The translations under genes were made by a program, and so were the position numbers. The notes under the pieces are model-generated. The model ran no database searches and was not told the origin of the DNA. It saw only the letters and a list, made by a program, of their open reading frames with translations. A DNA stretch of 64,000 nt from Clostridia bacterium 41_269 (GTDB lineage: Bacteria > Bacillota > DTU086), in contig LGEZ01000002.1 in assembly GCA_001508005.1 (NCBI GenBank), forward strand, positions 1 to 64,000, written 5' to 3'. This document shows, one piece after another, positions 4,363 through 39,065 of this stretch (position 1 is the first letter of the stretch; each line of letters opens with the position of its first letter).

Positions 4363-5786
4363 ATGGAATTGATAAAAGTTGATAAAAACAAATATATGAT
4401 AAAAAAACATGGAAAAATGAAGTGCGATGTTGTTGTTTATGTAAATGATTATCTTTATAAACTTTTAATGGAAGAAAATGAGGCTGTCAATCAGCTGTAT
4501 AATGCTGCATGCCTGCCTGGGGTTTACAAACGGGTATTGGGTATGCCAGATATTCATACAGGCTTTGGTCTCCCTATAGGCGGAGTAATGGCAATGGATG
4601 GAGAAAATGGAGTGGTTTCTGCAGGTGCAGTGGGTATGGATATTAACTGCGGTGTACGCCTGCTCAGCACTAATATACATCGTTCTGAGGTTAATGAGAG
4701 TATATTAAAAGCTCTTTTAAAGGAGATTGAAAGCAAAGTTCCCCCAGGACTTGGGAAAAAAAGCAGAGATAAGAAATTTAGAAATGTAAATTTAGATCGA
4801 ATAGCGGAATTAGGGGCTCAAGAAATTGTAAGAACTTACGGCTTAGGAACTGAGGAAGATCTTCAAAATACCGAAGATTACGGAAGAATTCCAGGTGGAG
4901 ACCTGGATGCAGTTTCACCTCATGCTGTGGAAAGAGGCGATCAGATAGGCACCATTGGTTCAGGAAATCATTTCATTGAAATTGGATATATAAGCAGGGT
5001 TTATGATGAGTCCCTTGCGGATTTTTTTGGCTTAAAGGAAAAAAATATTACTGTGTTAATACATACCGGGAGCAGGGGTTTTGGACATCAAATCTGTACA
5101 GACTATACAAACATGATGCTTCGTAAAGCTGAAAGCATGAAGTTGCCCATTCCCAGTAAAGGTTTAGCTTATGTGCCCATAAAAACTGAACTGGGCAGGC
5201 AGTATCTTGCTGCCATGGCAGCCGCAGCAAATTTTGCTTTTGCCAACAGACAGATCATTACTGATTATGTTAGGAGTTCTTTTTCAAAAATCTTTAGGCG
5301 CTCATGGGAAAAATTGGGGTTAAAATTGGTTTATGATGTGGCTCATAATATTGCAAAATTTGAAGAATATGATGGCAAAAGCTTTTAATACATAGAAAAG
5401 GTGCTACGAGAGCTCTACCTGCCGGACATAAAGACAATCCTGAATATTACATTTCAACGGGACACCCTGCTATAATTCCCGGAACGATGGGTACTGCATC
5501 TTATGTAGTGGTAGGTACTGACAAAGCTTATGAGACTTTTTATTCTGTAAACCACGGGGCTGGAAGGGTCCTTTCAAGAAATAAAGCAAAGAAAACTATT
5601 AGTCAGCAGGAATTTAATGAAAGCTTAAAGGGTGTCATATGCCTTCAAAAATCAAAGAAAATTTTGGATGAAGTTCCTCTTGCATATAAAGATATTGAAC
5701 AAGTTGTTGGCACTCTTTGGGAAATAGGTATTACAAAGAAAGTAGCTAAATTAAAGCCTTTAGCAGTTCTAAAAGGAGAAGATTAA
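4363..5786 (+). pseudogene. rtcB: RNA ligase RtcB, interrupted by a one-base frameshift
   Basis: RtcB joins 2',3'-cyclic phosphate and 5'-hydroxyl RNA ends using GTP and manganese. The first frame (4363-5388) holds the conserved MDINCGVRLL (metal Cys 96), GSGNHFIEIG and HTGSRGFGHQ motifs and stops right after EEYDGKSF. The continuation, including IHRKGATRALPAGHKDNPE and the NHGAGRVLSR segment with the guanylylated His, lies in the -1 frame from about 5379 to 5786. Adding one A to the AAAA at 5377-5380 restores a 474-residue protein of normal RtcB length. No other damage is visible, so sequencing error or very recent mutation is likely. As it stands the first fragment lacks the guanylylation site. 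No RtcA or archease is adjacent. Confidence 0.9.
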
Positions 5787-14570: not shown

Positions 14571-15506
14571 ATGCGTAAAACAGCTTTTATTTTTCCAGGC
14601 CAGGGTTCCCAATATGTGGGAATGGGAAGGGAGCTGGCAGAAAATTTTAGTGCCGCAGCAGAAGTTTTTTCAAAAGCCGATAAAGTTCTTAAGAAAAGTA
14701 TTTCTTATTACTGTTTTGAAGGCCCTGAAGAAAAATTAAAAGATACTGTAATTACACAGCCTGCTGTCTTAACTGTAAGCATGGCAGTTTTTGAACTGCT
14801 TAAAGGAGAAGGTATAGAGCCGGATTATGTTGCTGGGCATAGTTTAGGGGAGTATACAGCTCTGGTTGCCTCAGGAGCTATGGATTTTGAAGATGCTTTA
14901 AAGTTGGTAGTTAAAAGGGCTCAATGGATGTCTGAGGCTGTGCCGGCTGGTGAAGGTGCCATGGCTGCAGTTATTGGTCTTGATGCGGAAAAAGTAGAAA
15001 AAATTTGTTCAGAAGCTAGTAATGAAGGTGTGGTAGAACCTGCTAACTATAACTGTCCCGGACAGATAGTAGTTTCCGGCCACACAAGGGCAGTTCATAA
15101 AGCTATGGAATTGGCTAAAGAAGCCGGAGCAAAACGTGCTGTGCTTCTGCCGGTGAGCGGCCCTTTTCACTCAAAGTTGATGAAGCCTGTGGAAGAAAAG
15201 TTAAAGAAAGCACTAGAGAATGTGGAGATTAGAAAACCTAAATATGAATTTTTAGCAAATGTTACGGCTTCATTTACAGCTTCACCTCAGGAAATAAAAA
15301 ACCTTCTTATTAAACAAGTCAGCAGTCCGGTTTTATGGCAGAAAATTATAGAGAATTTAATTAATATAAAAGTTAATGTATTTGTTGAAGTTGGTCCAGG
15401 AAAGGTGCTTAGCGGATTGGTTAAAAGAATAGATAGAAATGTTACTATTCTGAATGTAGAGGATGAGAAAAGCTTTTCTTCAGTAAGGGATTTTTTAAAG
15501 GAGTGA
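14571..15506 (+). CDS. fabD: Malonyl-CoA:ACP transacylase
   Basis: FabD moves malonyl from CoA to ACP. It starts with the family motif FPGQGSQYVGMG, has the nucleophile S91 in AGHSLGEYTAL and the catalytic His in SGPFHSKLM near residue 200. The length of 311 residues is standard. It lies 21 nt after fabK and 6 nt before fabG, clearly in the same operon. Confidence 0.96.
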   Translation: MRKTAFIFPGQGSQYVGMGRELAENFSAAAEVFSKADKVLKKSISYYCFEGPEEKLKDTVITQPAVLTVSMAVFELLKGEGIEPDYVAGHSLGEYTALVASGAMDFEDALKLVVKRAQWMSEAVPAGEGAMAAVIGLDAEKVEKICSEASNEGVVEPANYNCPGQIVVSGHTRAVHKAMELAKEAGAKRAVLLPVSGPFHSKLMKPVEEKLKKALENVEIRKPKYEFLANVTASFTASPQEIKNLLIKQVSSPVLWQKIIENLINIKVNVFVEVGPGKVLSGLVKRIDRNVTILNVEDEKSFSSVRDFLKE

Positions 15507-15512
15507 AAAAGA

Positions 15513-16259
15513 ATGCTGCTTGAGGGGAAAATTGCCCTTGTTACAGGGGCTTCAAGGGGAATTGGACGAGCTGTTGCTTTAAAATTAGCTGAACATGGAG
15601 CTAAGGTTGGCATAAATTACTATAGCAGTGAAGATTCAGCAGAAGAAGTCAAAAAAGAAATTGAGAGTATGGGAGGAGAAGCTGTTCTTTTACGGGCTGA
15701 TGTTTCAAATTACAATGAAGTAGAAGAAATGATTAAATCGATAACAGATAAATTTGGAGGTCTTAATATTCTTGTTAATAATGCGGGTATTACCAAAGAT
15801 AGTCTGCTCCTTCGCATGAAAATTGAGGACTGGAACAAAGTTTTAGAAATAAATTTAACAGGGGTGTTCAACTGTACAAAAGCAGCGCTTAAACCGCTGC
15901 TTAAGTCGGATTATTCTACCATAGTTAATATAACATCAGTCATTGGACAGATTGGCAATATCGGTCAGAGTAGTTATGCATCAGCAAAAGCAGGTGTCAT
16001 TGGGTTTACTAAAGCAGTAGCCCGGGAATTGGCTGCTAAAAACATAAGGGTGAATGCTGTGGCACCAGGTTTTATTGAAACTGATATGACAGCTGGACTT
16101 CCTGATAAATTTAAGGACCAGTTTAAAGAGCAGATACCTTTAAAGAGATTTGGAAGTCCTGAAGAGGTAGCTGAAGTGGTATTGTTTTTATCATCTCCTC
16201 GAGCAAGCTACATAACAGGACAGATAATCAACGTAGATGGTGGTTTAGTAATGTTGTAA
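15513..16259 (+). CDS. fabG: 3-oxoacyl-ACP reductase FabG
   Basis: FabG reduces beta-ketoacyl-ACP with NADPH. It is a short-chain dehydrogenase with TGASRGIGRAVA (cofactor loop), NNAGIT, catalytic Ser in NITSVIG, and SSYASAKAG holding the YxxxK pair near residues 154-158. It ends with the family-typical YITGQIINVDGGLVML. Length is 248 residues. AAGGAG lies upstream of the ATG. Confidence 0.96.
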   Translation: MLLEGKIALVTGASRGIGRAVALKLAEHGAKVGINYYSSEDSAEEVKKEIESMGGEAVLLRADVSNYNEVEEMIKSITDKFGGLNILVNNAGITKDSLLLRMKIEDWNKVLEINLTGVFNCTKAALKPLLKSDYSTIVNITSVIGQIGNIGQSSYASAKAGVIGFTKAVARELAAKNIRVNAVAPGFIETDMTAGLPDKFKDQFKEQIPLKRFGSPEEVAEVVLFLSSPRASYITGQIINVDGGLVML

Positions 16260-16294
16260 AATGTGAAAAGATAGGTATTATACTTAAAAGGGTA

Positions 16295-16303
16295 TGTTAT
16301 AAA
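16295..16303 (+). promoter_or_regulatory. Possible extended -10 element ahead of acpP
   Basis: TGTTATAAA in the 71-bp gap before acpP could drive extra expression of the abundant carrier protein. No clear -35 box is present. Confidence 0.3.
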
Positions 16304-16330
16304 ATATAAGAAATGAGAGGGGGTGAAAAG

Positions 16331-16567
16331 GTGGCTGTATTTGAAACAATTAAGCGCATTGTGTCTGACCAACTGGGAGTGGAGGAAGAAGAAATAACCG
16401 AAGCAACATCCTTTGAGGATTTAAATGCTGACTCCTTAGATATTGTAGAATTGATCATGGCATTAGAAGAAGAATTTGATATTGAAATTCCCGATGAGGA
16501 TGCGGAGAAGCTGACTACAGTGGGAGCAGCAGTTGAATATGTTAAGGCTAAAATCGGGGAAGAATAG
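16331..16567 (+). CDS. acpP: Acyl carrier protein
   Basis: ACP carries growing acyl chains on a phosphopantetheine arm. The 78-residue acidic protein has the attachment site DSLD with S35. The GTG at 16331 gives the usual N-terminus [16 protein letters not shown] and has AGAGGGGGTG upstream. An ATG at 16313 is in frame but lies inside the purine-rich ribosome binding region. It is followed by a modest hairpin terminator before fabF. Confidence 0.96.
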
Positions 16568-16618
16568 AAGTCATATTTTCCCTATCTACCTTCCCTTTAT
16601 TTCTGTATATTTTTAAAC

Positions 16619-16648
16619 ATCCCGTAGTACTTCCTACGGGATTTTCTT
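16619..16648 (+). terminator. Terminator or attenuator between acpP and fabF
   Basis: The 9-bp stem ATCCCGTAG/CTACGGGAT has a 6-nt loop and is followed by TTTCTT. The short imperfect T tract could allow partial read-through, giving more acpP than fabF transcript. Confidence 0.6.
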
Positions 16649-16683
16649 AATAGAAGCGGTATGCGGCGTAAGGGGGAAATTAT

Positions 16684-17943
16684 ATGAAGAAAAATAGGGT
16701 GGTCATAACTGGAATAGGAGTTATTTCTCCTGTGGGAACAGGGAAAGAGAAGTTTTGGGAAGCATTGATTGAAGGAAGAAGCGGTATATCAGAAATAACT
16801 CACTTTGATGTAAAGGATTACCCCACAAAAATTGCAGGAGAAGTAAAAGATTTCAACCCCTTTGATTATATCGACAAAAAAGATGTTAAAAGGATGGACC
16901 GCTTTGCTCAGTTTGCAGTGGCGGCTGGAAAAATGGCAGTGGAAGATGCAGGATTAAATCTTGAAAAACTTGATAAAGATAGGGTCGGGGTTATATTAGG
17001 TACAGGTATTGGTGGTACAGAAACCTTTGAACAGCAGCATGAAATACTGCTTAACAAAGGGCCAAACCGTGTGAGTCCTTTTTTCATACCTATGATGATT
17101 GGAAATATGGGAGCTGGACAAATTTCCATTCAGCTGGGCCTTAAAGGCCCAAATATTACTATTGTAAATGCCTGTGCTTCCGGTGCCAATGCAGTTGGAG
17201 AAGCATTTAAAGTTCTTCAGAGGGGAGATGCCGATGTCGTATTAAGCGGGGGATCAGAAGCTGCATTAACTCCCATGTCTCTTGCCGGCTTTTGTACTAT
17301 GAAAGCTATGACAACTTATAATGCTGAGCCCCAAAGAGCAAGCAGACCCTTTGATGCGAAAAGGGATGGTTTTGTGCTCAGTGAAGGGGCTGGTATAGTT
17401 GTTTTGGAGACCCTTGAGCATGCTGAAGCCAGAGGGGCAAGAATTTATGCAGAAGTAATTGGATACGGCTGTACAGCGGATGCGTATCATATTACTGCTC
17501 CTGCTCCTGATGGAGAAGGTGCAGTTAAGGCAATGCAAAGAGCCCTGGATGATGCAGGGATAGAACCAAAAGATGTAGATTACATTAATGCCCACGGTAC
17601 TTCAACCCAACTCAATGATAAGTATGAAACCTTGGCCATAAAAAGGGTATTTGGTGATCATGCATATTCATTGGCCGTAAGCTCAACTAAATCTATGATT
17701 GGACATTTGCTTGGAGCTGCGGGAGCAGTGGAAATTATAGTAACTGCCCTTACGGTTTTTGAAGGAATCATTACACCCACTATTAATTATGAAAATCCTG
17801 ATCCTGATTGTGATTTGGACTATGTTCCCAATAAAAGCCGGCGTGCAGTAGTTACTACCGCTTTATCCAACTCATTAGGATTTGGTGGACACAATGCAAC
17901 AGTTGTGGTGCGCAGATATGAAAATAATGGCGGTGATAAATGA
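16684..17943 (+). CDS. fabF: 3-oxoacyl-ACP synthase II (FabF)
   Basis: FabF elongates acyl-ACP by condensation with malonyl-ACP. The Cys-His-His set is visible: C164 in [10 protein letters not shown], His in [11 protein letters not shown] (near 304) and His in [13 protein letters not shown] (near 341). The length of 419 residues is slightly above the usual 410-415. GGGGGAAAT precedes the ATG. The stop overlaps the first ATG of rnc. Confidence 0.97.
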
Positions 17944-18653
17944 TGAAATCCTCCAATAGATCATTGGAATCCCTGCAGCAGAAAATAGGAATTAAGTTTG
18001 ATAATATAAATACTCTGTTAACTGCGCTGACTCATCCCACATATGTATTTGAGAAGAGAAATGTTCGTGAGCACAACCAAAGGCTTGAATTTTTAGGTGA
18101 TGCTGTTTTAGGAATGATTGTGGCGGAATTTCTTTACAAGAATTATCCTAATAAATCTGAAGGAGATCTAACAAAATTGAGAGCCAGTTTGGTTTGTGAA
18201 AGTTCCCTTGCAAAAAACGCCCGTAGAATAGATTTAGGTGACTATTTATTTATGGGTAAAGGAGAAGATATTTCCGGAGGAAGACAGCGCCAATCCATAC
18301 TTGCAGATAGTTATGAGGCGTTGGTAGGAGCAATTTATCTGGACAGAGGGCTCGATGCCGCTCGCAGTTTTGTGGTTAGGGATTTAAAAACTCTCCTTAA
18401 TGAAGGTGTTGAGAGTACTTTTAAAGATTATAAAACCCTTCTTCAAGAACTTGTGCAAAAAAAATATAATGAAAATGTTTCTTATTCCATACTAGAAGAA
18501 AGCGGTCCTGACCATGATAAAAATTTTGTGGCGGGAGTATTTTTTAAAGGGAAGCTTTTAACAAAAGGCAGCGGAAAAAGTAAAAAGGAAGCGGAACAGG
18601 AAGCAGCTAAATATGCATATAGCATCTTAATGGATAAAGATAATGTGAATTAA
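17940..18653 (+). CDS. rnc: Ribonuclease III
   Basis: RNase III cuts double-stranded RNA, including rRNA precursors. The N-terminal nuclease domain has the signature [14 protein letters not shown] with the catalytic acidic residues (near 45-52) and a later [16 protein letters not shown]-terminal double-stranded RNA-binding domain covers about residues 160-232 ([12 protein letters not shown] to [10 protein letters not shown]). Length is 237 residues. Its ATG overlaps the fabF stop. The rnc-smc-ftsY order is a Firmicute hallmark. Confidence 0.96.
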
Positions 18654-18678
18654 CTGCTCTTGAAAAGGGCGGTTTTTT
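18653..18678 (+). terminator. Intrinsic terminator after rnc
   Basis: ACTGCTC pairs with GGGCGGT (7 bp with two G-U pairs) and is followed by seven T. It separates rnc from smc. Confidence 0.7.
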
Positions 18679-18744
18679 TATTTGTCTAAATTTTTAAGAA
18701 AAACATGTTAAAATAGACTAAAAATACCTAGGGCAGGTGTCCCA

Positions 18745-21700
18745 ATGCTAATTACAAGAATAGAAGTACAAGGATTTAAATCTTTTTTTGGTAAGGAAAC
18801 AATGGAAATAAGCCCCGGTATAAATGTTATAGTTGGGCCCAATGGCAGCGGCAAAAGCAATCTTATTGATGCTTTTAATTGGGTTTTAGGGGAACAGAGT
18901 ATTAAAGCCCTGAGAGGAGAACGATATGAAGATGTAATTTTTGCAGGATCAAGCAGTAGGAAACCCGTGGGTATGGCTCAGGTTTCCCTTTTTATAGATA
19001 ATTCCGACGGCTTTCTACCCTTGGATTATAGTGAAATAATGATTACTCGAAGACTTTACCGTTCAGGTGAAAGCCAGTTTTTTATAAATAAGGTTCCCTG
19101 CAGGCTTCGAGATATAAGGGAACTTTTTATGGGTACGGGCTCGGGAAAAAATGCTGTAACAGTTATTAATCAGGGGCAGGTGGACCAGGTATTAAATGCT
19201 AAACCCCATCAGAGAAGGGAGATTTTAGAAGAAGCATTGGGTATCTCTAAGCACCTTATTAAGCTTAGGGACACTAGGGAATATCTTGTAGAGATAAAAA
19301 ACAATATGGATCAGTTGGAGATTTTTTTTGAAAATATGGAAAAAAGCATGGTTTATCTTAAAAAAGAGGCTGAAAAAGCTTTTGAATATATGAAATTGAG
19401 GGGAAAATTGGAATATATTAATGCAGCTATTGCAGCCTGGGAAATAAAAAAATTGGTTAGGGAAATTTACAGCTGCAGCAGGGATATAGAGGCAATTAGC
19501 CTTTTTAAGGAAAAACTCACTCTCCAAAGGGATATATTTGAAAGGCTTTTATCCCATAGTGCAGCATACAAAAAGAGGATTACCTTGTTAAAGGAAAAAA
19601 TTACCGATAGGATCCATAATGTCAGATTGGATAAGGAAAAGCTTACTCTTCGAGTAGAAGATTTAGAAAGAATGTTGGAAGAGCTAAAAGGGAGATATTC
19701 AATAATTTCAAAAAATTTGGAGGCTTTAAACAGAGAGAAAAACACTATTACAGAAAAAATCTATGTTTGTGAAAAAGAAAAAATAAAAATCCAGGAAAAT
19801 ACAGCAGACATTCGGAAAAAACTTGAAAACTGCAGCAGTGAGGTTCAGCGGATTGATGAGGAAATTAATGGTCTTGAAAGCAAAATCACCAAGATACACA
19901 GCGGTATTTTAACTGTATTGGAAAGGGCTTCAAAAATAAAAAATGAATTGGTTTCCGAAGAAAAAGAGCATCAGAGTTTAAAAAATGAACGGCAGAGAAA
20001 TTTAGATAGAATAAATTATTTAGATAAAAAGATAGAAAATTTGCGGGGGAAAATAAATTCCCTTTCCCGTGCCATACAGGAATTAATATTAAAGAAAAAG
20101 CAGCTGAGGAGCTTCGAAGATAGATGTTTCCAAAAGCTTAAAAATCTTGAGCTGCAGATAAAGGAAATAAATGATGACCTTAAAAAAACTGAGGAGGAAC
20201 TTCAACATGTAAGTTCTAAGCGAAAAACTTTGGAGAGGATGGTAAATAATTATGAAGGATATAAAAAAGAAGTTGTTCAGCTGCTGAGGAGTAAAAAAAA
20301 TTTTTTAAAGGGCTTTTATGGTGTCGTGGGTGATCTAATTAAAGTCCCCACACCATATCGGGAGGCTTTGGAGGTATGTCTTGGTTCTAGGATTAATAAT
20401 GTGGTGGTGGAAAGTGCTGATGATGCCAAGAGAGCAATTGAATATCTGAGAGAAAAGTCTGGGGGAAGGATAACCTTTTTGCCTCTTGACACCATTGTAG
20501 GTTCAAAAATTTCTCCCAAAGTATTGGAAAAACTTCCTCACGAGGCCTTAATAGCTGCTGATATAGTGGAAGTAGAGGAAAATCTAAAACCTGCTGTTGA
20601 GTATTTATTAGGGAAAATATTGGTAGTAAATAATCTTGATGAAGCATTAAGTGTTGCGAAGGCAGTTAAATTTCGATATACCGTTGTTACAAAAAGTGGA
20701 GATATAATACATCCCGGCGGTGCCCTTACTGGGGGAAGTAGAAAAGTAACTGCACCGGGCATTCTTGGACGTAAGGAAGATCTTTATGGTCTCTTAGAGA
20801 AGGAAAAAATGCTTAGGGGGAAAAAAACAAAGCTGTCTGAAGAAAAAGAAAAACTGGAACATCAGTATAAAAATGAAAGGGAGAAGTATGAAGAGATAAC
20901 TTTAGAGCTGAAAAATATAAGCCTCCACTTAAAGGAAGAACAAATAACCATGGAGTATGTAAAAAATCAAATTAAAGATGCGGAAAGGGAAAAACTTATT
21001 TTGACTAAAGAAATTGAGCAGATAGGTGCAGAGATCAAACACTTAGAAGAAAAAATCCAATTTCTAAAAAATAAGCCGAAAAGAAAAGAAGCAACAGTCC
21101 TAAAGCTGAAGGAGAAAGCACAAAGCTATGAAGAAAAAGTCCTGCGGCTGAAAAAATTAAGGGATGAGCTAAATGGATTGTTGAATTCATACAAAAATTC
21201 CTTATCTGAGGCTGAGCAAAGAAAGTTAAGTTTGGAAAAGGAATTGGAATTTTTAAAAACCTATAAAAGACAAAAAGAAGAGGAATTTTATAGTAAAAAG
21301 GAAGAATTAAAAAATTTGAGCAGGCAGATAGAAGACTTAGAGAAAAATATTTTTAACCTTCAGTACGAAGTTAAACGCTACAAAGAAAAGGAAAAAATTT
21401 TATTGAATAGGTTGGATTCAGTTAATGGGAAATTAAAAATTTTATCCCAAAAGGAATCCAAGTACTGTGATGTTGTAAATAAAATAAACAAAAAATTGGA
21501 AAAATTAATGCTTATTGAGAGAAAATTGGAAAACAGAAGGTTATCTTTGGAGCTTACTTTTGAAAATTTAGATAAGAAACTTAGTAATGTTGATCATGCA
21601 GCATTGGAAAAATTTTTAAGGGGGATAACCGGGGTTAATAAGAAAACCTTTGAAGTGCAGCGGGAATTAAAAAATAAAATACTGCGTCTGGAACCGGTAA

Positions 21701-33173: not shown

Positions 33174-33282
33174 AACGCGATAAAGGCTAACCATCCGAAA
33201 GGGTGGGCGCAAAGCCATGGGTCTAAAGCCCTTAAATGGGTATGACTGCCAGGCTGCCGTTGGGTAAGGCTTTCTTAGCGTT
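33174..33282 (+). promoter_or_regulatory. c-di-GMP-I (GEMM-I) riboswitch
   Basis: The sequence follows the GEMM-I consensus closely: a P1 helix (AACGC 33174-33178 with GCGTT 33278-33282); GGCTAACCATC then the GNRA tetraloop CGAAAG and GGGTGGGCGCAAAGCC in the first domain; then GGGTCTAA (tetraloop receptor strand), ATGACTGCC and AGGCTGCCG in the second. These are the elements that bind the two guanines of c-di-GMP. It lies about 130 nt ahead of a five-gene partner-switching operon. A possible expression platform is the 3' P1 strand GCGT pairing with ACGC at 33313-33316, next to the hairpin at 33318. Whether it is an ON or OFF switch cannot be read with confidence. Confidence 0.9.
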
Positions 33283-33317
33283 TTATTCGTTATATTGGTT
33301 TTTTATCTTTTTACGCG

Positions 33318-33344
33318 GCAGCTAGGCAGCTGCTTAAATTATTT
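33318..33344 (+). terminator. Possible expression-platform hairpin of the riboswitch
   Basis: GCAGCT-AGGC-AGCTGC forms a 6-bp hairpin followed by a weak T/A-rich tract. Its upstream flank (ACGC) is complementary to the 3' strand of riboswitch P1, so ligand binding could control its formation. Confidence 0.35.
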
Positions 33345-33408
33345 TATACGGCATTTTCAGTATTTATGATGTCGAATAGAACAGTGGTAATGTGAAAGGT
33401 GGTGAAAA

Positions 33409-34647
33409 ATGAACAGGTGTCAAGAATGTGCTCAGAAGGAACCTGAACAAAAGTGTTGGGAATGCGATTATTTTGTTCAACCTGGTCCCCTTCGTAAAGT
33501 TCCTTCTCCTCCAATAAAAGTATTTTTGGAAGACGAAAAAGGCAAAAAATATCCAGCCAAAATTTTGGTTTTGAATACTACTGAGTTTGGAATTGAGACA
33601 GAGGCCCCTCCTGCTGGGCGGTATATAATTAAACTTCAAGGCCACTTGTGGGTAGAAGTAGCAGGGGTTCCTTTAAAAGGGAAAAATAAAGTTCACATTT
33701 TTGATATTCTTCGTGTTCATAGGAAACAGAATGATTCTACACGTCTTAATAAAGAAGAATTTCATCTGCTTACTGGAAGTGCAGGAGAACTAATACAGGA
33801 ATTTTCCCGTTATTTACCAGAGCATATACGGAATCCATTAAAAGAAAAGCTGTTGGCCGAAGTAGAAAAGTCTGAATTATTAAATGCTTTGAAAGTAGGA
33901 AGGGTAATGAAATATGAGAAAGGTCGTTTTCGCCACCTTTCTGGTAAGAATGATTTGGACATGCCTATGGAAGAAGCTGAAAAGCTTATGAGAAGGGCTC
34001 TTCGTGAGGCAGCTTACAGAAGAGAAGTAATAGTTAGTGCCGATGGAAAGAAAGTTTTTGACTTACACGGTGTTCCTTTTGATTATAAAAGTGGTGGACT
34101 GTTGGCCTTTGATGTTACAGAAGTGATTGAGAAAGAGAGAAAGATGTATCAGCAGGAATTGCAGGCCTATAGAGATGCCATATCAGCAGTAACTGGGGAG
34201 AGACTGCAGCTTTTAAGCAAGGATATGATAGAAAAAGTAATAGCTGAGGGTTCAGAGCTGATTAGAGGAGAAGTTTGGCAGGCCCATGATATCCCAGAAG
34301 CTCGTCGAAGAGTTCGTGAAATTTTGCCAAATCTTGATAATCATAAGCGTCATATGATTGAGCTTTGTTTATCTGAGGCAATAACCAATGCTTTAAAACA
34401 TGCAGGAGGAGGCTACTGGCATCTTAGGCGGTTGAAGGAGATTTTAAGAGTTATTGTTCAAGATAACGGATCTGGTATTAAAACAAGTGAATTAGCTCGA
34501 GCAACATTAATGCAGCATTATTCAACAAAAAATTCATTAGGTTGTGGGTTTACCTTAATGCTTTACTATGCAGACAAAATATACCTAGCTACTGGGACTT
34601 CTGGAACTACATTGGTATTGGATTTTAATCTTTCCTCGGATTGCTAA
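33409..34647 (+). CDS. Sensor protein with C-terminal RsbW-like anti-sigma kinase domain
   Basis: The 412-residue protein has three parts. Residues 3-19 form a Cys-rich knuckle (CQEC, then CWEC). A beta-rich region (about 35-110) resembles PilZ-like domains without a clear c-di-GMP motif. A middle helical/PAS-like segment lies at about 130-260. The C-terminal HATPase domain (about 290-410) has the N-box ELCLSEAITNALKHAGGG, the G1 box VQDNGSGI and the GCGFTLM G2 box, as in RsbW/SpoIIAB serine kinases. It probably phosphorylates the STAS proteins encoded next. It has no membrane segment, so signals are likely cytoplasmic. GAAAGGTGGTGA precedes the ATG. It is the first gene after the c-di-GMP riboswitch. 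Confidence 0.75.
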   Translation: MNRCQECAQKEPEQKCWECDYFVQPGPLRKVPSPPIKVFLEDEKGKKYPAKILVLNTTEFGIETEAPPAGRYIIKLQGHLWVEVAGVPLKGKNKVHIFDILRVHRKQNDSTRLNKEEFHLLTGSAGELIQEFSRYLPEHIRNPLKEKLLAEVEKSELLNALKVGRVMKYEKGRFRHLSGKNDLDMPMEEAEKLMRRALREAAYRREVIVSADGKKVFDLHGVPFDYKSGGLLAFDVTEVIEKERKMYQQELQAYRDAISAVTGERLQLLSKDMIEKVIAEGSELIRGEVWQAHDIPEARRRVREILPNLDNHKRHMIELCLSEAITNALKHAGGGYWHLRRLKEILRVIVQDNGSGIKTSELARATLMQHYSTKNSLGCGFTLMLYYADKIYLATGTSGTTLVLDFNLSSDC

Positions 34648-34688
34648 AATGAATAAAATGAATAAATGTTCAAAGAAGGTGAGGAAAA

Positions 34689-34991
34689 ATGCTTAAATTG
34701 GATATGTGCACCGTTGAGGGAAGATGCTGTGTCGCTTTAACCGGTGAGCTGGATTTAGAAACAGCAGCACAGTTGAAGAAAGTGGTTGAAAAAGCAGATG
34801 GAGAAATACTTGAAATTGATTTATCTCAGGTTTCTTTTGTGGATTCTACGGGTTTAAAATGTTTATTAGACATTAATAATCTATGGAATCAACGTGGTGG
34901 CAGAATTATTATACTAAACCCCAAACCTGAAGTTGCAGAGGTAATGGAGCTCATAGGTCTTAATAAACTGCTAGATATGAGTAATAAGTAG
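34689..34991 (+). CDS. STAS-domain anti-sigma factor antagonist
   Basis: A 100-residue single STAS domain of the SpoIIAA/RsbV type. The segment IDLSQVSFVDSTGLKCLLD places the phospho-acceptor Ser near residue 57. It should be the substrate of the upstream HATPase kinase and of the downstream PP2C phosphatase. AAGGTGAGG precedes the ATG. A second STAS gene lies two genes downstream. Confidence 0.9.
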   Translation: MLKLDMCTVEGRCCVALTGELDLETAAQLKKVVEKADGEILEIDLSQVSFVDSTGLKCLLDINNLWNQRGGRIIILNPKPEVAEVMELIGLNKLLDMSNK

Positions 34992-35013
34992 GAAAGAAAA
35001 AGCGGGTGAGATA

Positions 35014-35703
35014 ATGTTTAGCTGTAATGGGAAAAGCATAAAGGTTGGGAAATTGGAAGTATGTGGCAGCAGCATACCTGCAGGGAAGGTGGGAGGGGAT
35101 TTTTTTGAATTTATTACCCAAAATGAAAAAGCTGTTTTTGCTGCCATAGGTGATGTAATGGGAAAAGGATTTCGAGCGGCCTATTTAATGGAGACAATAC
35201 GACAACAAATGCTTAGAGAAATGTATCAGTTACTAAGGCCCATAGAAGTGGTTAAGCGGTTAAATAGAATTGGTGGAAATGAGCTAAGACGGCATGGAGC
35301 TTTCGTAACCCTTTTTATAATTTGCTGTGATGCGGAAACTGGATGTATGAAATGCGTTAATGCAGGTCATCATCCTCCTATTCTTTTAACTGGTGGGGAA
35401 GTCAAAGTTTTGAAAAGTCGTGGAGTTGCTTTGGGTTTGTTAGATGATTACGTTGGTTCAGGTGAGGAAGAAATTTATCTTTCTTCTGGAGATGCATTAG
35501 TAATGTATACAGACGGACTTGTGGAGGCCTGTGGCCCCGGGGATGAGAGGTATGGGCTTGAGCGGTTGAAAAAAATAGTTAGTATTCAGCAGAATTTTAG
35601 TGCAGAAAAACTAAGAAATTGCATTTTAGCTGATCTTGAGAAATTTACTTTTGGATATTCCCAAAGGGACGATATTACTCTGGTTGTTGTGAAGGCCCTT
35701 TAG
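35014..35703 (+). CDS. PP2C-type (SpoIIE/RsbU family) serine phosphatase
   Basis: A 229-residue stand-alone phosphatase domain with the metal-binding acids in GKVGGDFFEF (near 26-35), FAAIGDVMGKGFRAAYLM, VMYTDGLVEACG and QRDDITLVVV. It lacks any sensor domain, so its activity may be set by interaction or by expression level. It is expected to dephosphorylate the adjacent STAS proteins, opposing the kinase. GCGGGTGAG precedes the ATG. Confidence 0.9.
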   Translation: MFSCNGKSIKVGKLEVCGSSIPAGKVGGDFFEFITQNEKAVFAAIGDVMGKGFRAAYLMETIRQQMLREMYQLLRPIEVVKRLNRIGGNELRRHGAFVTLFIICCDAETGCMKCVNAGHHPPILLTGGEVKVLKSRGVALGLLDDYVGSGEEEIYLSSGDALVMYTDGLVEACGPGDERYGLERLKKIVSIQQNFSAEKLRNCILADLEKFTFGYSQRDDITLVVVKAL

Positions 35704-35719
35704 AAAGTGAGTGAGTGAT

Positions 35720-36037
35720 ATGGAGATTAGGCTTCAACAAAAAGATGGAGTGGCAATTATAAAAGTTTTAGGAGAATTGGATTACAGCAATGTAGAAGAA
35801 CTGCAATTTGAAATACAGCGCTGTAAAGAAAAAGTAATTGAAATAGATCTTCAAGAACTTCAATTTATGGATTCTTCAGGTTCGGGTATGCTTTTAAATC
35901 AAGCTAGAAAACTTCATGAACAGGGTCGTATATTAAGAATTGTTCGTATTCCTGATCACATAAAAGAAGGCTTAGAAATAATAGGTTTTTTTAAAGTTTT
36001 AGAGGTTTTAGAGAGTAAATCAAATAGCAGGGAGTGA
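35720..36037 (+). CDS. STAS-domain protein (second antagonist)
   Basis: A second STAS protein of about 105 residues with IDLQELQFMDSSGSGMLLNQ; the phosphorylatable Ser follows the Asp near residue 57. It differs from the first STAS protein, so the module has two potential outputs. The start may be ATG 35720 or the in-frame GTG 35711; neither ribosome binding site is strong. It ends overlapping the region where fapA begins, so the two are probably coupled. Confidence 0.88.
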   Translation: MEIRLQQKDGVAIIKVLGELDYSNVEELQFEIQRCKEKVIEIDLQELQFMDSSGSGMLLNQARKLHEQGRILRIVRIPDHIKEGLEIIGFFKVLEVLESKSNSRE

Positions 36038-36042
36038 TTTTA

Positions 36043-37901
36043 GTGGAGACAGTAGGGAACATGGGTGCATATTTTTTCTCATCTACCCAAGATAATGGCA
36101 TTTTATTTAGTAGAAATTCAGTTGGTCCATATGCTTATGTAAAACAGGGTCAGCTTTTTGTCCAACATCCTGCAGAAGGTCCCTATCCTATTGTGGTTCC
36201 TTGCCCTGGAACAAAGCTAATTGTAAATGACAAAGAATGTAAAGAACCTACGCCGGTAACTGTAAATGATAAAGTTCGGATAGAAGTAGCCGAAGATGAA
36301 TGCAGGGAAGGAAGTTGGTCTGTGTTTGTTTCATCAGATGAGATATTTGTAGAGCTGCAGATGCGACCTACTGTTTTGATTCGCAGAGAACTTATGGATC
36401 TTCCCCCTGCGAGGATACTCCATTTGAAAGTTAATGAGCGTGAAGAATATATTCCTCCTTTTACATTAGATGAACTGCTCCAAGAACTATCTCGTTTGGG
36501 GATTAATTATGGAATTGACTGGGAAGCCTGTTCTCGTGCTGCTGCATCTTGTAAAGAAGAGAAAATAATTATTGCACGAGGTGTTCCTGCAAAGCCGGGA
36601 AAAGATGCTAGGGTAGAACTTCGTTTTTCTAACGATTCTAAAATTCCTGTACCTATAGGAAAAGATGAAATAGTAGTAGATTTTCGAGAGCGTTTTATTT
36701 TTACTCCTGTAGAACCTGGTGATGTTTTGGCTGTAAAACATCCAGCAGAGCCGGGTATTCCGGGAACTAGTGTTAAAGGGAATTTGATTATGCCACCTTC
36801 CCCTCGGGACTACTGTCTTACTGCTGGTGAAGGTGCAATTGTTACGCAGGATGGTAAACAGGTTGTTGCTGTTCGTTCTGGACGGCCGGTTGCAGTTTTT
36901 GGGTCCTATATGGTTAAAATAAGTGTACTGCCTGAAATGGTGCATGATAGTGATGTTAATCTAGCCTCAGGAAATATTGTTTTTAAAGGAGATATTTTAA
37001 TTTCGGGAAATGTATTGGAAGGAATGTTAGTGGAAGCAGGAGGAAATGTTAGGATAGGTGGATATGTTTCCCATGCAAAAGTAAGAGCTAATGGTTCTAT
37101 TTGGATTAAGGGTAATGTTTTATCTTCTGTTGTAGTTGCTGGAGGAAATAATGCAATTGCTCAGGAAATACAGCCATACATTAAAACATTAGCATCAGGC
37201 TTACGGGAAATGGTTGCAGCAATAAAGCAGTTGTTGAAACATCCAGCGTTTAAAAAGATGACCTTAAATTTGGTATTGGTCCATTAGTTAAACTGTTAAT
37301 GGAAAGCAGGTTTAGTTGTATTTCCACTGCTACATCTAATTTAAAAATATTGCTTAAAAATCTAAATCTTTGCTTTTTAATCGATATGATAAAAGATTTT
37401 AGAGAATTTGTAGAAACGGTACAGAGAACGTTGGTTTGTTTTCCTTTAACTATACGCAGATTAGAAGAAGTAGAACTGTTGGCTAGAAGAGCTGGTGAAT
37501 GGGAGCAGATTTTTTTGTCACTGCCGACGGGTGAAAGTGATTTAGTTGTATCCAGTGTTCTTAATTCGAATGTTGTTGCTACTGGAGACGTAAAAGTAAT
37601 AGGGAGCGGTTGTTTTAATTCCTGGATTCATGCAGGTAAAGAAGTTGCTATAAACGGTGTTTTTCGTGGTGGTGAAATAAAGGCTGGAGGAAATGTATAT
37701 GTTAAAGAAATGGGCTCTAAGTGTGGGGCTGCAACAAAAATTATAACAATTTCCAAAGCACGAGTTACCGTGGGACATGTTTTTGAGAATTCTACTGTAG
37801 TTATAGGAGGGAAAGCTTATAAATTTGATAGGGAAGATGAAAACATTTGTCTCTATCTTGATAAAAAGGAAAATCTAAATATTACAAGAGCTTCAGTATA
37901 A
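36043..37901 (+). pseudogene. FapA/DUF342 polymer-forming protein, one-base frameshift
   Basis: FapA (DUF342) proteins have an N-terminal domain and a right-handed beta-helix like bactofilins and act in envelope, flagellar or signalling functions that are poorly known. The first frame (GTG 36043 after GGAGTGAT, to 37287) contains RGVPAKPGKDARVEL, VEPGDVLAVKHPAEPGIPGT and helix repeats such as VNLASGNIVFKGDILISGNV. The second (to 37901) continues with DLKFGIGPLVKLLMESRF and more repeats (VVSSVLNSNVVATGDVKVIG, GGEIKAGGNVYVKEMG). Adding one A to the A5 run at 37252-37256 joins them into 619 residues, normal for the family. It is the last gene of the riboswitch operon. Confidence 0.85.
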
Positions 37902-37952
37902 CAGACAGAATTTTTCAATGAGCAGTTATAAATTTTGTAATATTTGATGATT

Positions 37953-37975
37953 CCTCGAATAGATTATATTCGGGG
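37953..37975 (+). other. Hairpin adjoining a ribosome binding site
   Basis: CCTCGAAT (37953-37960) pairs with ATTCGGGG (37968-37975) across a 7-nt loop. The 3' arm runs into the GGGGTGG ribosome binding site of the next gene, so folding could limit its translation. Confidence 0.4.
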
Positions 37976-37982
37976 TGGTTTT

Positions 37983-38771
37983 ATGGACAAAACGTTGGAA
38001 CAGCGTGTCTTATTTCTTGTGGACGAATTTATAAAGACGCTAATTGATTTGTACGAAGCTGATCCAGAAGTGGGAGAAAAGCTGTCCATAAAAGCAGAGG
38101 ATATTTTCATTGAATTAGCAGAAGAAGCGTTGAAGCTGCTTCAGGGTAGAAATGAATATCTTGAGGCAATGCTTAAACAGCTGGTTGCGCAGAAGCTGCC
38201 GTCTGATATGATTATGAAGAGTTTTGAAGGATTTGAAGAAAAAATGCAGAGCCTAATTAGAAAAGGTTTGATTAAGTTTCAAGAGCGCCATTTAGAAAAA
38301 CTGCAGCGAGAATTTGAGAATTTTGAGAGTACTGCTGAAAAAGAAAGGGAAAGTGTTTATATAAACAGTCAAGAAGCTTTTGAATTCACCGAAGAAAAAG
38401 AGAGTGAAGAAGAGTATCATTATTATCCGATTAATGATGAATGTCCTCATGATGTAAAGAATTCCATGGAAGACTTTTTAAGAAAGCTGTTTCCTAAGGA
38501 GGAATTGATAAAAGATTTTAAAATTGGTAATATAATTTTTGAATACTATATTCCTGATTTAGATTTAGCTTTCGAGAAGAGTTCTAAGGTTAGAAAGGGC
38601 TGTAATAATTTCTTAGAAATGTGCTGTTATAAGAATGGCATTCTTCTTTTAAAAATAGATCCTAATAAAGTTGAAAATTTAAAAAGGATGAAAAGAAAAA
38701 TTAAACTGCTGATGGCTCAAAAAAATTTTTTAGATAAAAGGATTTTTGAATTAACAAAAGAATATATTTAA
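37983..38771 (+). CDS. Hypothetical protein, helical and acidic
   Basis: A 262-residue protein I do not recognise. About residues 1-130 are helical with coiled-coil character. Residues 135-170 are strongly acidic (EEKESEEEYHY). The C-terminal 95 residues look like a compact alpha/beta domain (IIFEYYIPDLDLAFEKSSKV), followed by a basic helix. It has no signal or membrane segment. The ATG at 37983 follows GGGGTGG; an in-frame ATG at 37944 lacks a ribosome binding site and lies before the hairpin. It sits between the c-di-GMP operon and the T-box and may be the distal gene of the former. Confidence 0.7.
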   Translation: MDKTLEQRVLFLVDEFIKTLIDLYEADPEVGEKLSIKAEDIFIELAEEALKLLQGRNEYLEAMLKQLVAQKLPSDMIMKSFEGFEEKMQSLIRKGLIKFQERHLEKLQREFENFESTAEKERESVYINSQEAFEFTEEKESEEEYHYYPINDECPHDVKNSMEDFLRKLFPKEELIKDFKIGNIIFEYYIPDLDLAFEKSSKVRKGCNNFLEMCCYKNGILLLKIDPNKVENLKRMKRKIKLLMAQKNFLDKRIFELTKEYI

Positions 38772-38821: not shown

Positions 38822-39065
38822 TCAAAAGCTGTGAAGGGGCAAAGCTGTAACTGTTTTTTACAGAGAGCCGTTATATGCTGAGAAACGGTAAAAACAGTTA
38901 CTGCGAGCCACCCTGGAGCTGCTGGTGAATTAAGCCATGCCGGATGACTCCGTTATTAGGTCTTGTTTGAGAGGTGGACTGTCCTTAAATTTAAATATAA
39001 AGGGGCAGTCAACTAGGGTGGTACCGCGAGAAAATTCTCGTCCCTTGGGGCGGGAATTTTTATTT
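38822..39065 (+). promoter_or_regulatory. T-box leader, probable alanine specifier
   Basis: The T-box sequence AGGGTGGTACCGCG is at 39015-39028, followed by a 14-bp terminator stem (39031-39061) and a T run. Stem I shows GTAACTGTTTTT/AAAAACAGTTAC (38847-38858 with 38890-38901), the AGAGAG motif and the distal CCGTT/AACGG hairpin with GCTGAGA. The trinucleotide before the usual ACC is GCC (38907-38909), an alanine codon. The antiterminator bulge TGGT pairs with ACCA, fitting the A73 discriminator of tRNA-Ala and not the G73 of tRNA-Ser. Uncharged tRNA-Ala should allow read-through into alaR-alaT. Confidence 0.9.

Follow-up and report, generated by a model that had tools for sequence, protein, structure and literature searches.

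A c-di-GMP-I riboswitch ahead of a partner-switching operon with a FapA gene in Clostridia bacterium 41_269 and its relatives

What does a riboswitch for cyclic di-GMP (c-di-GMP) control when it precedes a whole partner-switching cascade and a gene of the FapA (DUF342) family? This question is raised by a locus of Clostridia bacterium 41_269 (Bacillota) found in the first 64,000 nucleotides of contig LGEZ01000002.1 (assembly GCA_001508005.1; 1.67 Mb, 30 contigs, 95.5% complete), a stretch that will be called the window. An earlier note, made from the letters of the window alone, had described the riboswitch and five genes as one operon. The present analysis points to a c-di-GMP-repressed partner-switching module that would belong to the low-c-di-GMP (motile) programme and would probably act on FapA, a reading that we hold with moderate confidence. 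The features on which it relies are the following.

33176..33262, + strand: c-di-GMP-I riboswitch aptamer with the canonical A47 (CGCAAAGCC), from covariance matches and the aptamer alignment
33252..33262, + strand: 3' strand of the aptamer, doubling as the 5' arm of the antiterminator, from leader folding and alignment
33309..33324, + strand: 3' arm of the antiterminator, which shares nucleotides with the 5' arm of the terminator, from leader folding and alignment
33317..33334, + strand: weak intrinsic terminator (-9.4 kcal/mol, tail TAAATTATTTTA), from leader folding
33409..34647, + strand: GHKL (SpoIIAB/RsbW-like) protein kinase of 412 amino acids (aa), from Pfam, profile and fold matches
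34689..34991, + strand: STAS protein 1, with a phosphorylatable Ser in DSTG (STAS E 5.9e-17)
35014..35703, + strand: SpoIIE/PP2C-type phosphatase (E 4.3e-40; motifs GGDFF, GDVMGKG, YTDG and DD)
35711..36037, + strand: STAS protein 2, with a phosphorylatable Ser in DSSG (STAS E 1.2e-15)
36034..37901, + strand: FapA (DUF342) gene, split into open reading frames (ORFs) 36034-37287 and 37299-37901, from Pfam and the alignment with a congener

The GEMM-I aptamer announced by the earlier note passes the thresholds of two Rfam covariance models, and their ranking raises the question of its ligand. The sequence 33176-33262 obtains 71.4 bits with the general model RF01051 (gathering cut-off 35) and 65.4 bits with RF03167, named c-di-GMP-I-GGC (gathering cut-off 59), the latter being the top-ranked match of the Rfam clan in the window as well as in many relatives. 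This ranking and the name of the model would favour another cyclic dinucleotide, either cGAMP (cyclic GMP-AMP) or an unknown one. However, the RF03167 consensus (CGCGAAGCC) has a G at the column equivalent to A47, which in our reading is what "GGC" refers to, whereas an A occupies this column in the window and in the 19 other aligned aptamers (20/20), as in canonical c-di-GMP-I riboswitches. A ligand of the GGC variant was rejected on this ground. The alignment also shows that the G that turns into A in cGAMP aptamers is retained, and that the canonical ligand-contact nucleotides G20, A47 and C92 are present, in a Vc2 numbering that we take to follow the structure of Vc2. Because A47 is present and the cGAMP-discriminating G is kept, the aptamer is assigned to the ordinary c-di-GMP-I class, with c-di-GMP as its predicted ligand; with the high score of the general model, this makes any other ligand very improbable. 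The genome carries three c-di-GMP-I aptamers in all, and the two others are located 5' of flgB-flgC-fliE-fliF-fliG and of a chemoreceptor gene, so that the operon and motility genes use one class of switch.

The aptamer is followed by a terminator hairpin (33317-33334) and a T-rich tail. The 5' arm of this terminator can pair either with its own 3' arm or with the aptamer 3' strand (33252-33262), so that terminator and antiterminator share one arm. In 13 orthologous leaders, the cells of the terminator are paired at 97.4% (25-60% in slid controls) and those of the antiterminator at 90.9% (25-55% in slid controls), and two pairs per helix show changes on both sides. The computed energy gap between the ligand-free antiterminator and terminator states is mostly of a few kcal/mol, with a range of -7.2 to +10.4. 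As the antiterminator strand contains nucleotides of the aptamer involved in ligand binding and in P1, the liganded aptamer would exclude the antiterminator, and the riboswitch can be predicted with good confidence to be of OFF type for the operon. The control by the riboswitch that the earlier note had put forward thus gains an aptamer-led expression platform, together with a direction that the note had left unpredicted. Furthermore, the sole terminator between the aptamer and the genes is that of the riboswitch itself, rather than an independent one. Globally, the element resembles known c-di-GMP-I riboswitches (RF01051) by its aptamer score, its A47, its terminator-type OFF platform and the tandem copies seen in two relatives, but differs from them in what it controls, namely an entire partner-switching operon that includes FapA.

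Behind this platform, the kinase, STAS, SpoIIE-type phosphatase, STAS and FapA genes follow each other on the + strand with intergenic gaps of 41, 22, 7 and -4 nucleotides, in agreement with the single operon proposed previously. With three aptamers per genome, the chance of finding one within 250 nucleotides upstream and on the correct strand is about 2 in 10,000, a figure obtained by simple arithmetic that leaves the relatives uncounted. From its sequence, the operon is very probably c-di-GMP-controlled.

The kinase consists of a four-Cys cluster, a six-stranded beta domain (residues 36-104, predicted with good confidence), a middle domain and an ATPase domain (residues 294-404). It matches HATPase_c_2 (E 3e-8) and HATPase_c (E 1.1e-6) in Pfam, and its ATPase domain resembles those of SpoIIAB (profile E 2e-10) and RsbW by both sequence and fold. 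At least one of these two Pfam domains is found in all 26 homologues, and neither they nor the kinase carry a HisKA or other His-kinase phosphoacceptor domain. The N-box residues Glu323 and Asn327 as well as Asp352 are invariant in the homologue alignment. The N-terminal Cys knuckle noticed earlier is real, since all or nearly all of the 26 homologues retain C4, C7, C16 and C19. A PilZ domain would fit the six predicted strands and seemed plausible on inspection, and residues ~30-110 can be aligned with PilZ, NTTEFG lying opposite DLSASG (hhalign E 0.025, probability ~1%); nevertheless, the N-terminus has neither an RxxxR motif nor a PilZ match in Pfam, and hhalign comparisons with the PilZ domains of related genomes were not significant. 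Among the top 50 matches of a Foldseek search with the whole kinase model, most were to GHKL and PAS-kinase proteins.

The putative substrates and the phosphatase keep their key residues as well: the Ser of DSTG and that of DSSG are invariant in the STAS alignments, and so are the metal-binding Asp residues D29, D47, D167, D219 and D220 of the phosphatase. Kinase, STAS proteins and phosphatase would therefore form a complete partner-switching circuit of Ser type, with phosphotransfer as the expected reaction. Such a circuit recalls SpoIIAB-SpoIIAA-SpoIIE and RsbW-RsbV-RsbU, which likewise combine a GHKL kinase devoid of HisKA, DS(S/T)G STAS substrates and a SpoIIE-type phosphatase. Unlike these systems, the operon of the window has two STAS genes and a linked FapA gene, lacks a sigma factor gene and is placed under a riboswitch; moreover, its kinase includes additional Cys-cluster, beta and middle domains. 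The set also shares STAS proteins, a GHKL kinase and a phosphatase with the stressosome (RsbR-RsbS-RsbT). However, no RsbR-type protein combining a sensor with STAS is encoded in the set, both STAS proteins being single domains of about 100 aa.

The last gene of the operon encodes a FapA protein, as the earlier note had recognized, although its two ORFs are in fact one frameshifted gene, a point that had escaped notice. FapA (flagellar assembly protein A) is identified by matches above the Pfam cut-offs to FapA_N (E 2.2e-36; 125.3 bits, cut-off 27) and to the FapA beta-solenoid (E 8.7e-23; 81.7 bits, cut-off 31), with a further beta-solenoid match at 1e-7. The resemblance to bactofilins suggested previously is weak (Pfam E 0.041), and a bactofilin identity was rejected. 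The frameshift lies in an A5 run at 37252-37256, within TTTAAAAAGATGACC; after this run, the alternate frame reads KDDLKFGIGPLVKLLMESRF, where the aligned congener has KRDDLKGGIGPLIRLLLESKF. The congener (L034/L074) carries one continuous ORF of 619 aa, and FapA is likewise a single ORF, of ~600-615 aa, in the close relatives with good flanks. A programmed -1 frameshift at the slippery A AAT TTG was rejected, since the reading frame is uninterrupted in relatives and the change maps to the A5 run in the alignment. The frame is broken either in the assembly only or in the organism itself; one-base changes in A runs are common assembly errors.

Two distinct kinds of FapA can be recognized. In the tree, the FapA proteins of the module and those encoded next to sigD (L116 and L117) form separate clades with support 100/100. 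The latter genes lie directly 3' of sigD in genomes G037 and G039, while those of the module are longer (~615 versus ~475 aa) and linked to the partner switch rather than to sigD. FapA has been reported as a neighbour of sigma-28 among flagellar genes (PMC11607428).

Is this arrangement more than a peculiarity of one genome? A scan with the kinase profile, using one genome per species, returned 27 loci, and relatives of the kinase were detected in 43 of 399 scanned genomes of the phylum. After removal of duplicates, 23 of the 26 close-clade loci with sufficient upstream sequence have the riboswitch at the head of the set (window, L074-L078, L080, L081, L084-L090, L037, L146, L153-L157 and L159). 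Most members of this clade share the order kinase-STAS-PP2C-STAS-FapA; the clade includes Desulfofundulus, Desulfoscipio, Desulfallas, Moorella, Thermanaeromonas, Thermosediminibacter and other Peptococcaceae; L090 and L091 differ. The expected synteny across Clostridia is thus found, and homologous operons mostly do have the riboswitch. FapA occurs together with the kinase in every sufficiently flanked full-length homologous locus, is the last gene of the operon and is followed by no common gene. This linkage persists under altered gene order (L038-L041, L092-L094 and L096), and distant loci retain kinase, STAS and FapA genes, differently ordered, with a riboswitch upstream also in Frackibacter (L096) and in L168. 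The relatives are not independent draws, as the arrangement is inherited; they show its retention. With gene order and riboswitch position kept across genera, the arrangement is more than chance.

Some loci show further features. Tandem c-di-GMP-I riboswitches, an arrangement known to sharpen the response, precede the operon in L077 (9536-9642 and 9767-9852) and L085 (996-1083 and 1232-1316). In L037 (4960-6229, genome G016), the kinase gene is broken at about residue 366 by transposase-like ORFs (IS3-like).

The relatives also reveal genes that the earlier note, correct about the five parts of the set, did not notice. In many of them, an HD-GYP gene is located between the riboswitch and the kinase gene, which suggests a feedback on c-di-GMP. 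Six of these operon-leading HD-GYP proteins have a Spo0E-like tail whose score exceeds the Pfam cut-off:

L035:3340-4053: HD-GYP protein with a Spo0E-like tail
L078:3405-4118: HD-GYP protein with a Spo0E-like tail
L080:9244-9993: HD-GYP protein with a Spo0E-like tail
L084:9248-9982: HD-GYP protein with a Spo0E-like tail
L086:9197-9955: HD-GYP protein with a Spo0E-like tail
L087:9199-9957: HD-GYP protein with a Spo0E-like tail

All these fusions but that of L035 are riboswitch-led, and they might provide a direct link from c-di-GMP to Spo0A. HD-GYP domains are also fused to kinases. L097 (8684-10585) encodes a REC-PAS-HD-GYP-HATPase protein of 634 aa 5' of STAS, PP2C, STAS and FapA genes, at a locus where no riboswitch was found. 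L084 has a second partner-switch cluster (14856-20041), led by a riboswitch (14856-14941) and composed of STAS, an HD-GYP-HATPase fusion (16224-18350), STAS and PP2C. A cluster that looks similar to this one is found in L091 (riboswitch at 5546-5628).

A mechanism can be proposed from these data. At high c-di-GMP, the liganded aptamer would hold its 3' strand, the antiterminator would not form and the terminator would silence the operon. At low c-di-GMP, the circuit would be made, presumably alongside the flagellar operon that has its own c-di-GMP-I riboswitch. The kinase would sense a cue through its N-terminal Cys cluster and beta domain and would set, together with the phosphatase, how far the two STAS proteins are phosphorylated. 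The most likely partner of dephosphorylated STAS would be FapA, which it would bind and gate, and not an anti-sigma factor. In relatives, the HD-GYP enzyme of the operon would lower c-di-GMP further, which would constitute a positive feedback. FapA is preferred as the client because the module is devoid of sigma factor genes, because FapA is the constant companion of the kinase and because there is a precedent: FapA of Vibrio binds EIIA-Glc, itself a phosphorylation-gated regulator, only when the latter is dephosphorylated (PMC6877527). Even so, the probability that FapA is the client of dephosphorylated STAS is put at slightly below even.

Several points weigh against this proposal. The terminator of the window is weak, the corresponding terminators of relatives being mostly at -12 to -20 kcal/mol and that of the congener at -16.9, so that basal read-through may be high, and no promoter stands out 5' of the aptamer in the window. 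The riboswitch is missing in three close relatives (L083, L035 and L036), in which a search for a hidden one with the pattern GAAAG...GCAAAGC was negative, and is therefore not essential to the module. The FapA gene of the window is frameshifted in this assembly. As its clade is distinct from that of the sigD-adjacent proteins, the FapA of the module appears to be a specialised paralogue whose role need not be flagellar. Finally, the interactions proposed between proteins of the module, and likewise the branched output and the FapA polymer put forward by the earlier note, are predictions from sequence. The weak terminator, with its poor U tail, the frameshift and an operon without an HD-GYP gene would also fit a decaying or chance arrangement, in which this organism would have lost the regulation or the function of the operon. 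This is improbable, since the kinase, STAS and PP2C genes are intact with all their catalytic residues, the congener combines an intact FapA with a strong terminator, and the single-base change affects an A run, a frequent site of assembly errors.

A conventional partner switch has to be considered more seriously. The kinase would then be the anti-sigma factor of an unlinked sigma factor (e.g. SigD/sigma-28 or ECF, extracytoplasmic function), the STAS proteins its anti-anti-sigma factors and FapA a merely co-regulated passenger. Indeed, the kinase domain is closest to the anti-sigma kinases SpoIIAB and RsbW, and ten matches to sigma-70 region 2 are found elsewhere in the genome, one of them in the flagellar region next to a PilZ gene, which makes an unlinked sigma target possible. 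Furthermore, Pseudomonas has an anti-anti-sigma factor, HsbA, that connects c-di-GMP with motility (PMC5085249). However, when nine of the genome's own sigma proteins were used as tblastn queries, no sigma factor gene was detected inside the module, in the window or in relatives; the absence noted earlier thus holds, save for an ECF-like match in L081, located 0.6 kb 3' of FapA. The linkage of FapA to the kinase, maintained whatever the gene order, also argues against a passenger, and we consider a sigma target unlikely, though far from negligible. Less likely still is a module whose main job would be a c-di-GMP/sporulation feedback, with the HD-GYP/Spo0E protein as an effector whose activity is set by the partner switch, by analogy with the control of the cyclase SiaD by SiaABC in Pseudomonas. 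The HD-GYP gene that opens many of the relatives' operons, the six Spo0E-like tails and the HD-GYP-kinase fusions of L097 and L084 would fit such a role. Nevertheless, the operons of the window and of the congener lack an HD-GYP gene despite other HD-GYP genes elsewhere in genome G000, and FapA as the constant partner would be left unexplained. The SiaABCD and HsbR-HsbA-HsbD systems of P. aeruginosa similarly tie partner switching to c-di-GMP and to the choice between motility and biofilm. However, their switch acts on a cyclase, whereas here c-di-GMP would act on the expression of the switch, and the linked c-di-GMP genes, present in relatives, encode HD-GYP enzymes.

Beyond FapA, the window carries on the + strand a 275 aa ORF without family (37944..38771), found in addition in the congener only (58% identity); its membership of the operon is uncertain, and a hairpin with a T-rich tail is located near its start (37953-37975). 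Further downstream, a T-box leader (38822-39048; 114.9 bits) precedes genes of an AsnC/Lrp-type regulator and an aminotransferase rather than a tRNA synthetase; its candidate specifier could be GCC (Ala).

In the papers searched, from a library without most subscription journals, no c-di-GMP riboswitch targeting a partner-switching operon with FapA was described, and none joined such a riboswitch with an anti-sigma factor antagonist and HD-GYP. The same riboswitch-led arrangement recurs in many heat-loving anaerobic bacteria, in which one conserved operon would unite control by a second-messenger RNA and partner switching by phosphoproteins. It may tentatively be viewed as a c-di-GMP-gated switch whose output is the state of a FapA-type polymer protein rather than transcription, with feedback in relatives by HD-GYP and, in spore formers, Spo0E-like proteins. 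If true, it would be a post-translational switch, complete in itself, by which cells leave or enter the motile state, and FapA/DUF342, a widespread family of unknown mechanism, would gain a candidate regulator. The presence of the operon in cultured relatives would allow a direct test of partner switches that act on structural proteins, and the HD-GYP-Spo0E proteins of these relatives suggest that c-di-GMP is linked to the sporulation decision in these anaerobes.

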